Source of the DNA: Phycisphaeraceae bacterium
Lineage (GTDB): Bacteria > Planctomycetota > Phycisphaerae > Phycisphaerales > SM1A02
NCBI GenBank assembly: GCA_015709595.1
Contig: CP054178.1
Span: 3,167,205-3,231,204, forward strand
DNA: 64,000 bases
Reading direction: 5' to 3'
The first letter of the stretch is position 1. The number at the start of each line of letters is the position of its first letter. Made by a program: the position numbers and the translations under genes. This document shows positions 16,949 through 27,837 of the stretch, one piece after another. Below the pieces are notes generated by a model. It saw nothing but the letters and a program-made list of their open reading frames with translations. It was not told the origin of the DNA and did no database searches.

Positions 16949-17635
16949 TCAGTCATGACCACGGTCATGACCATGCTCGGCCCACTCACAGAGGCCGTAT
17001 CCGCGCGGTTTCACGTCGCCTCGGTTGTCGAGGATTCCTCGCCTGACCAAGCTGGCCAGTGTGGCCTTCCCGTTCGCGTTTGCGATCCCCAAGGCCTTCT
17101 TGAGCAACGGATCCGTCGTCAGGCGTGCGCCGTGCTTCCGCAGGGCGGCGACGATGCTCCGTTCCGATTCGTTGAGTTCGACCTTCGGTTCTGGCGGCTT
17201 CCGCGTCCCCTCAGCAGGCAGCGCCGAGTAGTCCAGCCCCTTGAGTTCCAGTTGGACCTTGTGGGTTGCATCCACATCTTTCTGCCACGCCGCGCGATGT
17301 TCGCCCTCCGGCGGAAGCCCATGTCCGTACACCACCAACGCAGACGCCAGTCGATGCAGGATGGTCTTGATCCTACTGGTGTACTTTCCGGGCGGGGTGC
17401 CCAAGATGGGGCGAATCCACTCGTCGGCACCTGGGATCGCCGCCTTGGCAAGCCGGATGCACTCTTGGAGCGCCGCCACGGCTGATGCCCTCGCCTCCAG
17501 CCGCTCTTCGATGGTGTAGGGACTGTCCGGGACCGCCAGATGATGGCAGGCAACCGACCACTCGCGCGCCGCGAGGTAGACCTCCGCCAGGGCGTGGGCC
17601 AGCCGCAGTGCGGGATTCTCATCGTCCTTCGACAA
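16949..17635 (-). CDS. Uncharacterised protein with C-terminal winged helix
   Basis: A protein of about 228 residues. The N-terminal two thirds are helical ('LRLAHALAEVYLAAREWS', 'EERLEARASAVAALQECI'). The last 70 residues look like a winged helix ('LNESERSIVAALRKHGARL', 'ATLASLVRRGILDNRGD'). The start is uncertain: TTG 17635 has GGGAGG 10 bp upstream, and TTG 17668 is also possible. It is the last gene of the run that begins at hsdM, 54 bp after the preceding gene. Function unknown. Confidence 0.6.
   Translation of the reverse strand: MSKDDENPALRLAHALAEVYLAAREWSVACHHLAVPDSPYTIEERLEARASAVAALQECIRLAKAAIPGADEWIRPILGTPPGKYTSRIKTILHRLASALVVYGHGLPPEGEHRAAWQKDVDATHKVQLELKGLDYSALPAEGTRKPPEPKVELNESERSIVAALRKHGARLTTDPLLKKALGIANANGKATLASLVRRGILDNRGDVKPRGYGLCEWAEHGHDRGHD
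16952..16971. promoter_or_regulatory. Perfect palindrome before the replication operon
   Basis: GTCATGACC-AC-GGTCATGAC has 9-bp arms and a 2-bp centre. Directly beside it CTGAC-GCTTT-GTCAG (16938-16952) forms a second small dyad. They overlap the last codons of the gene at 16949 and lie about 80 bp upstream of the AlpA-like start. A regulator site or hairpin is likely. Confidence 0.4.
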
Positions 17636-17689
17636 GGGTTGCTCGCCTCCCGCAGCGCCGATCACCAAGACGATAATGGATTGGACACG

Positions 17690-18271
17690 TCATTTCGACT
17701 GCGGCTGCGCTTGCATCTGCTTCGCCTCAATCCACAGGAACTTGTCGAGTTGCTTCCGCGTCAACGACTCCAGGCCGAAGTGCAGTCGAAACCGATCGAT
17801 GGCCTTCAGGAACCGCGAGTAGGTTCGCAACTCATAGCGACGGAAATCATCGTATCGATGCTCGCGTCGGTATCGCCAAAGCAGGTCCTCAACCAGCGAG
17901 TCGAAGATCTGGAACTGATCGGGCCGATGCCATGCGCAGTACTTGGATGCGAACGAGAGCAGGTACCGCGACTTGCCGCCGGTCCGAGTGTTGGCAATGT
18001 CATGCACGAGCGAGTGGTCGCCAGCCACGAGTCGAGTGTCAATGGTCAGTTCGACGATCCGCTCCGCGACCGGCCACGGGCTGAGAATCCGGGTGCTGTA
18101 CAGCCGATCCAGCACGACGACCTTGACGATCACTTCCTCCAACTTCGTGTTCAGTGGCCATGCACTGAAGACGAGGCCGACTGCCTTGTCCGCTCCAAAG
18201 TAGCGATCGTCGCCGTCGAACTGGGCGATTCGACTCTGGGCGTACTGCAGTGTCAGAGCCGGTAGTCCCAT
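17690..18271 (-). CDS. Uncharacterised protein linked to type I R-M
   Basis: A 193-residue protein, not recognised with certainty. It has 'YFGADKAVGLVFSAWPLNT' near residue 25, 'LEEVIVKVVVLDRLYSTRI' near 45, and an aromatic motif 'SFASKYCAWHRPDQFQIFDS' near 105, followed by basic helices. The 'YASKYC-H-P---PIYDS'-like pattern recurs in unknown proteins of variable loci. Its ATG overlaps the hsdR stop by one base (TGATG), so it is translated with hsdR and probably functions with the R-M system. Confidence 0.65.
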   Translation of the reverse strand: MGLPALTLQYAQSRIAQFDGDDRYFGADKAVGLVFSAWPLNTKLEEVIVKVVVLDRLYSTRILSPWPVAERIVELTIDTRLVAGDHSLVHDIANTRTGGKSRYLLSFASKYCAWHRPDQFQIFDSLVEDLLWRYRREHRYDDFRRYELRTYSRFLKAIDRFRLHFGLESLTRKQLDKFLWIEAKQMQAQPQSK

Positions 18272-25098: not shown

Positions 25099-26097
25099 TC
25101 AAGCGGCCCCTCCGCATAGTGTCGCGGTCATACCGAGGCGATCGCCGAGGGCTTCAAGGGCTTTGACGTTGCGGCAACCGAGCAGGCGAAAGGCGTCGGT
25201 GAACGCGGAGCGGCCTTCCCAGGTGCTGGCCAGCACGGCGCGGGCGAAGCGCGGGCTGACCGCGGGAACACTACCCCGGCCATCCGGTACATCAAAGCCC
25301 CTGACGATTTCCGTGGCCACGGCATGGCACCACCACTCCACGCCGCGATCCGAGAACGAACTCGCGGGCGTTACATTCGAGACGCCCGACTCGCCGATCC
25401 AGAGGTGCGCCAGTTCGTGGGCGAGGGTGAACATCTGGCCGGCCTTGGTGTCGGTGCCGTTGATGAAGATGAGCGGCGCAAGGTGTGGGGAGGCGTCGCA
25501 GAGGGCGAAGCCGCGGAACTCGGCGGTGTCAAGCGGGCGGTGGGTGTTGTGACCGACGATGCCGCTGATCATGACGAGGATGCCGGCCTCGTCGGCGGCG
25601 TCAATCATCATGCGGAGGGCGTCCTCCCACTTCCTCGCCTCGGCCCGAGCGTCCAAATCGAAACCGACGGCCTCGCGGATGCGCGAGGCGGTGGCAATCA
25701 CTTCGCTCTGCACGGTGGCGGAGCCGATGAAGTCGAGCGGCGGCTCGCCCAGCACGAGGGCATTCTGGCGGTACCAATCCTGGCGCTGCTGGCAGAGATA
25801 GATCGTGTCGAGCAGGTCAGGGGATGGGTGCTGGACTCGTTCGCTGCCGACGGTGCGGAAGTCCGGGATGGGGATCGTCTCGACCGGTGGCTCCTGGAGG
25901 AAGAAGAAGCCGAAGGGCGTGCGGGTCGCCTTGGCGAAGTCCTCCAGTTGCTTGAACGTGGGCTGCTTCTCGCCGGTCAGCCAGTCGGGAAACGCGGCGA
26001 ACCTTTCGGCCAGCGCGGACTCCAACTTGCCCGCACGCTCGCAGGCCCAGCGAAGGAGTTCGGGCTTGACCGGCACTCTCAGCACGATGGTCTCCAC
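25099..26097 (-). CDS. ImmA/IrrE-like metallopeptidase with HTH-like N-terminus
   Basis: A 332-residue protein. The N-terminus ('VPVKPELLRWACERAGK', 'QPTFKQLEDFAKATRTPFG') is an XRE-like segment found in this family. The peptidase part has the zinc site HELAH at 227-231 ('TLAHELAHLWIG') and a likely third ligand Glu in 'VEWWCHAVATEI' near 253. ImmA/IrrE proteins cleave or bind a paired repressor after stress or damage. The start is GTG 26097, 24 bp after the hsdM stop, with no clear ribosome site. Its substrate may be the winged-helix protein encoded next. Confidence 0.85.
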   Translation of the reverse strand: METIVLRVPVKPELLRWACERAGKLESALAERFAAFPDWLTGEKQPTFKQLEDFAKATRTPFGFFFLQEPPVETIPIPDFRTVGSERVQHPSPDLLDTIYLCQQRQDWYRQNALVLGEPPLDFIGSATVQSEVIATASRIREAVGFDLDARAEARKWEDALRMMIDAADEAGILVMISGIVGHNTHRPLDTAEFRGFALCDASPHLAPLIFINGTDTKAGQMFTLAHELAHLWIGESGVSNVTPASSFSDRGVEWWCHAVATEIVRGFDVPDGRGSVPAVSPRFARAVLASTWEGRSAFTDAFRLLGCRNVKALEALGDRLGMTATLCGGAA

Positions 26098-26121
26098 AGT
26101 GGCGACGGGCGTTGATGGACA

Positions 26122-27837
26122 TTACGCCCCATTGCCACCCGCTACCCCACCAACACGACGAAGGTTGTCACGAATGACACGGGTCAGGCGCTCGGACTCG
26201 GCGAAGTGCTCCTCCAGTTCGGCGAGCAGGCGCGGGTACTTTTCGGCGAACGGCTCGCTATCCGCTTCCTGTTCCTCCGCCCCGACATATCGGCCGGGCG
26301 TGAGCACGAAGCCGTGCTTCTTGATCTCGTCGAGCGTGGCGGCCTTGGCGAAGCCGGGGACCGGCTTGAAGGCCCACGGGCCGTGCTCGCGGTCGGACCA
26401 CCAGTCGGGCTTGGGTTCGCCGCGCCACTGGCGGAAGGCGTAGACGATGCGGCCGATGTCGGAATCTGGCTTGGGGTCGCCAAGCCCATCGGCCAGGAGG
26501 GTTTCGCCATCGTCGCCGCCGGTGAGGACGCGCAGCGTGCGGCTCTGCATGGTGCCAAGTTTCCGGGCATCGATGAAGAGAGTCTCGCCGAGTCGGTTGC
26601 GCCCGCCCTTGGGGAGGTTGCGGCCAGTCTTGTCGCGGGTGAGGAACCACAGGCAGACGGGGATGCCGGTGGTGAAGAACAGTTGGGCGGGAAGCGCGAC
26701 GATGCAATCGACGAGGTCATGCTCGACGATGCGCTGACGAATCTCACCCTCGCCGCCCGAGTTGCTGGAGAGCGAGCCGTTGGCCATGACGAAGCCCGCC
26801 ACTCCGCCACCTTTGCCGTTGGGCGGGGCGAGGTGGTGGATGAAATGCTGAATCCACGCGTAGTTGGCGTTGCCGATGGGCGGCGCGCCGAAGCGCCAGC
26901 GGACATCGTCGCGGAGGAGCTGGCCCGACCAGTCGCTGATGTTGAAGGGCGGGTTGGCGAGGATGTAGTCGGCCTTCAGGTCGGGGTGGAGGTTGCGCAG
27001 GAAGGTGTCGGCCGGCTGGGGGCCGAGGTTGGCCTCGATGCCGTGGATGGCGAGGTTCATGTGCGCCAGCCGCCAAGTCGTGGGGTTCGATTCCTGGCCG
27101 AAGACGGAGATCTCGTCCTTGTTGCCGTGCTGCTCGACGAAGCGTTCGGACTGGACGAACATGCCGCCCGAGCCGCAGCAGGGGTCGTAGACGCGGCCGT
27201 TGTAGGGTTCGAGCATCTCGACGAGGAGGCGGACGATGCAGCGCGGGGTGTAGAACTCGCCGCCGAGTTTGCCTTCTGCGGCGGCGAACTTCCCAAGGAA
27301 GTACTCGTAGACGCGGCCGAGCGTGTCGCGTGCCTTGTCGCGGTCACCCTTGAAGCCAATGTCGGCGATGAGGTCGATGAGGGACTTGAGTTTGACCGGC
27401 TCGATGCCGCGGCGGGCGTAGTCGCGCGGCAACTTGGACTTGAGCGCGGCGTTGTCACGCTCGACGGCAAGGATGGCGTCGTCGATGAGCGTGGCGATGT
27501 CGGGGCGGGCGGCCTGATTCTGCAGGTTGGCCCATCGGGCTTCGGGCGGAACCCAGAAGACGCGCTCGGCGGTGTACTCGTCGCGGTTCTCCAGGAGGGA
27601 GTCCTGCTGCTTGCCGGTAATGCCATCGGCTTCGAGTTCGGCCCTCAGTTCATCGCGGCGGGCCTCGAAGGAGTCGGAGATGTACTTGAGGAAGAGCAGG
27701 CCGAGGACGACGTGCTTGTACTCGGCGGCATCGACCTGCCCGCGCAGGGCATCGGCGGCCTTCCAGAGGGCGTCGGCGTAGGTGAGATCCTGCGCCGACG
27801 AGGTGCTCTGGTTGGTTCCCGCTGCCGCTCGCGTCAT
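26122..27837 (-). CDS. hsdM: Type I R-M methyltransferase subunit (HsdM)
   Basis: The N6-adenine methyltransferase subunit, 571 residues. An N-terminal helical HsdM domain ('[20 protein letters not shown]') precedes the catalytic part with the SAM motif 'DPCCGSGG' at 218-225 and NPPF at 295-298. The C-terminus carries the expected coiled region. ATG 27837 has an AGGAGGAG site 7 bp upstream; the open frame continues well upstream but without conserved sequence. It is the first gene of the operon and is preceded by a strong inverted repeat at 27873-27895. Confidence 0.94.

Follow-up and report, generated by a model that had tools for sequence, protein, structure and literature searches.

What is a growth-arrest kinase doing inside a restriction operon? 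The question is raised by a 64,000-nucleotide stretch of DNA from a Phycisphaeraceae bacterium (contig CP054178.1, positions 3,167,205 to 3,231,204 of the forward strand; hereafter the window), part of a complete, single-contig genome of 3.84 Mb. To judge from its genes and motifs, the window carries a complete type I restriction-modification (R-M) operon with two plug-in sites, and the site between the specificity gene hsdS and the nuclease gene hsdR is occupied by a HipA-like kinase gene and a HIRAN-domain gene, the hipIN pair. The loci compared here support the view that type I R-M operons have recurrently incorporated this growth-arrest kinase module at the position between hsdS and hsdR, and the placement of hipIN in the operon matters more than the content of the operon. 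The arrangement is best explained as growth arrest serving as a backup.

The hipIN pair in the window and beyond

The genes on which the argument turns are the following, with coordinates, here and below, given with the likely starts:

26122..27837, minus strand: hsdM, type I methyltransferase subunit (ATG start at 27837 with AGGAGG upstream; Pfam N6_Mtase 2e-93, HsdM_N 1e-25)
23078..24355, minus strand: hsdS, specificity subunit (PADLOC Specificity_I 8e-60; Pfam Methylase_S 5e-4, below the cut-off)
22177..23073, minus strand: hipI, HipA-family core kinase without the N-subdomain (PADLOC PDC-M03A; weak HipA_C and HipA_2)
21376..22164, minus strand: hipN, HipS-like plus HIRAN protein, putative antitoxin and sensor (PADLOC PDC-M03B; Pfam HIRAN)
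18271..21366, minus strand: hsdR, type I restriction nuclease and translocase (TIGR00348 2e-156; T1RH-like_C 2e-112; HsdR_N, SWI2/SNF2 and T1RH_C)

All three subunits of a type I R-M enzyme are present with their catalytic motifs intact, namely NPPF and DPCCGSGGM (motif I) in HsdM and D-x-ELK, GSGKS and DEAH in the nuclease and helicase parts of HsdR; the original prediction, made from the letters alone, that hsdR, hsdM and hsdS keep their key motifs was confirmed by motif and profile checks. The pair that it described as a split HipA-HIRAN system is the hipIN module named by Gerdes et al. 2021 (PMC8262856), consisting of HipI, a short kinase, and HipN, a HipS-like domain joined to HIRAN. Both proteins match the components of the PADLOC candidate PDC-M03 (PDC-M03A, 4.8e-100; PDC-M03B, 2.6e-79). 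With 298 amino acids (aa), HipI has the size of a hipIN kinase (about 280-320 aa, without N-subdomain-1) and displays the motifs FK, NQDRHHEN and YDHG, its catalytic residues being invariant across 47 aligned relatives. Its AlphaFold model, built on the 47-sequence alignment with a predicted local distance difference test (pLDDT) score of 94, finds its best PDB match in CtkA, followed by HipA and HipT. HipN (pLDDT 92, 54-sequence alignment) shows both features that define the downstream partner, a HipS-like N-terminal domain and a C-terminal HIRAN domain. Residues about 1-126 match HipS of HipST complexes (7vkb_B, Z 10.8; 8ezr_A, Z 10.7), and residues about 129-251 match the HLTF HIRAN domain solved with single-stranded DNA (Z 10.3), a domain also recovered by sequence profile (Pfam HIRAN, 1.2e-7).

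The distribution of the pair was scored in 85 loci, which comprise 80 HipI relatives taken from one-genome-per-species contigs, the window and extra genomes. HipN adjoins HipI in nearly all of them. The pair lies directly before hsdR in 16 of the 85 loci, nearly always with hsdS preceding it, and the taxa with hipIN between hsdS and hsdR are planctomycetes, an Acetothermia metagenome-assembled genome and gammaproteobacteria. In these slot-borne operons the hsdS stop is usually 2-4 bp from the hipI start. Another 12 loci hold hipIN elsewhere beside type I genes, in arrangements such as hsdM-hipIN-hsdS (L052, L074) and hsdR-hipIN-hsdS-hsdM (L034). The gene order of the window was searched across genomes and is far beyond chance, being found again in more than ten other operons, and the presence of a HipA/HIRAN pair inside a type I operon, as originally predicted for this locus, is not limited to one strain. 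An evenly drawn sample of 392 planctomycete genomes contained HipI in 11 and a close HsdR in 57, the two being neighbours by coordinates in 3, the genome of the window included.

The pair also has other homes, and is a portable module with no need of restriction genes. In a Methylobacter locus (L038, Pfam-checked) it comes immediately after recB- and recD-like genes, and in another Methylobacter (L059) the upstream genes have the same sizes and the same order. In L078 it follows a ResIII-domain helicase gene. In L234 (PQ189286.1, 11590-13304) its neighbour is the integrase of a temperate, tailless Vibrio phage or prophage of 14.6 kb, and HipN relatives occur in three related Vibrio prophage records. 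All 67 of the proviral HipI loci have HipN.

Exchange at the hsdS-hsdR site

The slot that holds hipIN in the window carries other genes in related operons. Among 24 top-ranking HsdR relatives that lack hipIN, inspected in the 392-genome sample, the gap between hsdS and hsdR exceeds 300 bp and holds other cargo in 22: Abi_C in seven cases, SIR2, Fic, GmrSD, HerA-like helicases, HEPN, AAA_14/DUF4143 and a PrrC-type AAA_13 protein. Two operons whose HsdR is 77% and 74% identical to that of the window (L128 and L129, respectively) bear Abi_C exactly at the position of hipIN. At this slot, hipIN is interchangeable with unrelated abortive genes. The slot of the planctomycete operon L141 contains a 761-aa AAA_13 protein of PrrC type (7138-9423, plus strand; 1e-154) together with a HEC-07 protein. 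The genome of the window has a second type I operon (L144, G000:C1:951000-966000) with an HsdR 48% identical to the first, and there the slot is occupied by a DDE transposase and an unknown gene of 360 aa.

The history of these exchanges was followed on an HsdR tree of 43 operons, one set sampled by HipI and the other by HsdR, a design that biases the frequencies on the tree and not the changes that it forces. hipIN is spread over this tree, where the well-supported branches alone force at least nine gains or losses, and operons with hipIN and with Abi_C form the sister pairs L009/L139 and L029/L131. Across 11 hipIN operons, the identities of HipI and HipN correlate (Spearman 0.65, Mantel p 0.0005), as do those of HsdM and HsdR (Spearman 0.61, Mantel p 0.0005), and the identities of HipI and HsdR are uncorrelated (Spearman 0.11, Mantel p 0.16). 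The HsdR of the window is closest to that of L006 (80%), and its HipI is 54% identical to that of L006 and 75% to that of L001. Because HipI and HipN relatedness does not track that of HsdR and HsdM, and because identities are mosaic, the operon consists of two blocks with separate histories. hipIN has been exchanged between operons and shows no co-adaptation to a single restriction enzyme. Vertical inheritance of hipIN and HsdR as one unit was also considered, and was ruled out by the tree together with the mosaic identities.

Frequent turnover bears on the idea that hipIN is an addiction module, stabilising the operon by killing the cells that lose it and having no role in defence. The toxin-antitoxin architecture of the pair (PMC8262856) and its presence on mobile elements agree with such a function, but hipIN is often lost or replaced on the HsdR tree, and its replacements include single-gene cargo, such as Abi_C, with no obvious antidote gene adjoining. 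Addiction is, in our judgement, very improbable.

Separate histories suit equally well the strongest rival to a backup growth arrest, according to which the residents of the slot are independent passengers. The gap between hsdS and hsdR would then be a recombination hot spot, where defence genes are kept under the operon promoter and add their effects with no shared signal. This is what might be expected from cargo so diverse that it extends to a transposase in the second type I operon of the same genome, from a HipI whose relatedness does not track HsdR, and from the finding of hipIN alone on prophages and on most chromosomes. In addition, the same site has been suggested to be a recombination hot spot (PMC12255303), and TgvAB does not require HsdR activity to act against phage (PMC11411939). 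However, the cargo is largely of abortive or toxin type and not made of random genes, and a functional link with the restriction enzyme is known for PrrC, whose locus is of the same kind (PMC3874168). We regard independent passengers as a possible explanation, albeit on the unlikely side.

DNA ends as a candidate trigger

Backup growth arrest can be formulated in more concrete terms, in a version that we consider evenly poised between right and wrong: the hsdS-hsdR site would hold hipIN as a backup toxin-antitoxin module, in which DNA-end sensing by HipN releases HipI and growth stops. That the defence is layered can reasonably be inferred, with good precedent in PrrC and DarTG2 between hsdS and hsdR. 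In a healthy cell, the HipS-like half of HipN would keep the HipI kinase inactive. HIRAN domains bind DNA ends, and during infection that of HipN would engage DNA 3' ends or single-stranded DNA, supplied either by phage DNA that has been cut yet not cleared or by host DNA under attack. Once released, HipI would phosphorylate a component of translation, probably an aminoacyl-tRNA synthetase, and growth would stop before phage production. HipS neutralises HipT in hipBST, and the HipS-like portion of HipN has been predicted to neutralise HipI likewise (PMC8262856), in a work that also suggests that bacterial HIRAN domains may prefer single-stranded DNA.

Liberation of HipI through DNA ends would fit a module that joins its putative inhibitor to an end-binding domain and that has been recruited beside enzymes that make or process ends. 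Other contexts of hipIN, outside R-M operons, are DNA-end related too, as seen with the recB/recD-like genes of L038 and the ResIII-domain helicase of L078. A wider formulation, which we advance only tentatively and think rather unlikely, takes HipN for a DNA-end sensor and hipIN for a pair repeatedly recruited beside such enzymes; planctomycete type I operons would have two standing plug-in sites, one for arrest between hsdS and hsdR and a variable one between hsdM and hsdS, and the output of restriction would arm an interchangeable suicide device.

Several points weigh against a backup arrest released by DNA ends. The profiles used, which distant type I families could escape, detected no type I genes near 57 of the 85 HipI loci; since this applies to most of them, the link between hipIN and restriction is optional. 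The lack of covariation between HipI and HsdR comes from 11 operons only and is equally expected from mere hitchhiking. Furthermore, type I enzymes make ends in ordinary restriction as well, and therefore end sensing would need a threshold. The model of HipN does not tell the binding preference of its HIRAN domain.

A different trigger would operate if the pair worked as a guard of the PrrC type, with the assembled restriction enzyme silencing HipI and a phage inhibitor that disables the enzyme setting it free. PrrC behaves in this manner: its gene lies within a type Ic R-M locus, the R-M protein keeps the effector silent and the phage protein Stp switches it on (PMC3874168, PMC12707154). The related planctomycete operon L141 has a PrrC-type AAA_13 protein in its slot. 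Such a guard is nevertheless less likely here because the pair carries its own inhibitor candidate, HipN, which leaves an Hsd silencer unneeded. The fact that hipIN travels as a unit outside R-M loci, as in the proviral loci, also speaks against it, and the uncorrelated relatedness of HipI with HsdR and HsdM is mild evidence in the same direction. We hold this possibility to be improbable.

The remaining genes and the known systems

The nine minus-strand genes of the original prediction, as well as its junctions, are all present where it had placed them, in the order hsdM, immA, GDGN, hsdS, hipI, hipN, hsdR, 193-aa gene and 228-aa gene. From hsdM to the 193-aa gene, the junctions measure 24, 1, 67, 4, 12 and 9 bp, followed by a 1-bp overlap, and 54 bp separate the last two genes. 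Internal promoter and terminator scans of the operon gave chance-level counts only. Apart from hipIN and the hsd genes, the operon includes:

25099..26097, minus strand: immA, ImmA/IrrE-type (M78) metallopeptidase, first gene of the hsdM-hsdS slot (HELAH; Peptidase_M78 2e-7, above the cut-off; weak PADLOC RmrA matches, 1e-5)
24423..25097, minus strand: GDGN-motif protein, second gene of the hsdM-hsdS slot (weak PADLOC PDC-M14B, 7e-7)
17690..18271, minus strand: 193-aa gene, family unassigned, overlapping the hsdR stop by one base (no family matches)
about 16949..17635, minus strand: 228-aa gene, family unassigned and, given its 54-bp gap, a doubtful member of the operon (no family match above the cut-off)

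The hsdM-hsdS site is a second, more variable plug-in site. Its gap also exceeds 300 bp in 8 of the 22 hipIN-less HsdR relatives with both hsdM and hsdS in reach, and in hipIN operons it contains RhuM (L002, L029), an Mrr nuclease (L007), AbiD (L011), other cargo or none. The predicted place of immA recurs beyond one strain, although only L001 and L009 among the loci compared have relatives of it in this slot, and there its partner is DUF4411. The window lacks this pairing, the partner being the GDGN protein, of which no relative was found in the other loci compared. As immA is present in the slot in only two other operons and with a different partner, it is variable cargo. In the hipIN-bearing operon L062, a SIR2 protein appears as extra cargo between hsd genes.

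At the other end of the operon, the 193-aa and 228-aa genes are probably passengers, because they lack a family match, the relatives of the 193-aa gene are few (two distant ones among the 392 planctomycete genomes) and neither of these relatives has a detected hsd or hip neighbour. The 228-aa gene has no relative among the compared loci. Upstream of hsdM lie tRNA-Asn (28735-28806) and housekeeping genes (trpC/mgtE). Downstream of the operon are a large serine recombinase (11590-13218, minus strand) and a ParB_N plus N6/N4 methyltransferase protein (9724-11094, minus strand), and an 891-aa protein without family (13981-16656) is found between the 228-aa gene and the recombinase. The operon may sit at the edge of a serine-recombinase element; no repeat of the tRNA-Asn 3' end that would mark an island boundary occurs in 13000-29500.

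The nine genes had been proposed as a combination not known as a named system. This is not supported, since the HipA/HIRAN pair had already been named as hipIN (PMC8262856) and as PDC-M03, and hipIN also lives without R-M genes and swaps with others. A single named system of nine genes was likewise ruled out, as immA, the GDGN gene and both 3' genes fail to recur alongside the others. In the literature searched, which did not extend to the embedding preprint of Payne 2024 and thus supports no claim of priority, no publication was found on HipA/HIRAN inside type I operons, no account of the mechanism of PDC-M03 or of slot dynamics, and no description of hipIN in the hsdS-hsdR slot, of repeated exchange with Abi_C or of the second site between hsdM and hsdS.

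What had seemed a single odd operon becomes a measurable pattern, in which unrelated arrest genes replace one another time and again in a single slot of one restriction-enzyme lineage, with hipIN among the recurrent choices. The sister operons L009/L139 and L029/L131, with close HsdR and hipIN versus Abi_C, are natural matched pairs for setting coupling to restriction against riding along, and HIRAN points to DNA ends as a concrete candidate trigger for the HipI kinase family.

Like the members of the hipIN family (PMC8262856), the pair of the window consists of a short HipA-type kinase without N-subdomain-1 followed by a HipS-like plus HIRAN protein; restriction is not mentioned in that description, whereas this pair lies between hsdS and hsdR. 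PDC-M03, matched by both proteins, is itself only a candidate system. The PDC candidates of PADLOC were found by 'guilt-by-embedding' according to a 2026 paper (PMC12988326), an approach for which PMC12255303 cites Payne et al. 2024. The closest parallels concern the position of the pair. The RptR-RMS-DarTG2-M48 island of enteropathogenic Escherichia coli also has a toxin-antitoxin pair between hsdS and hsdR and a metallopeptidase gene, and as a whole it protects against phage, its authors suggesting a recombination hot spot of defence systems (PMC12255303). It differs in having DarTG2 instead of hipIN, an M48 gene downstream instead of an ImmA-type gene inside, and the repressor RptR. The prr locus, with the PrrC anticodon nuclease, is likewise a type I operon with an embedded effector that blocks translation (PMC3874168, PMC12707154), but there the restriction enzyme itself does the silencing, whereas hipIN brings its own inhibitor candidate. 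TgvAB of Vibrio cholerae VPI-2 and the GmrSD-like RloF of Campylobacter are embedded in type I clusters too (PMC11411939), although they provide type IV restriction and not growth arrest. It is established that type I operons can harbour toxin-type genes, and the operon of the window is a well-documented new example of this, not a new system.

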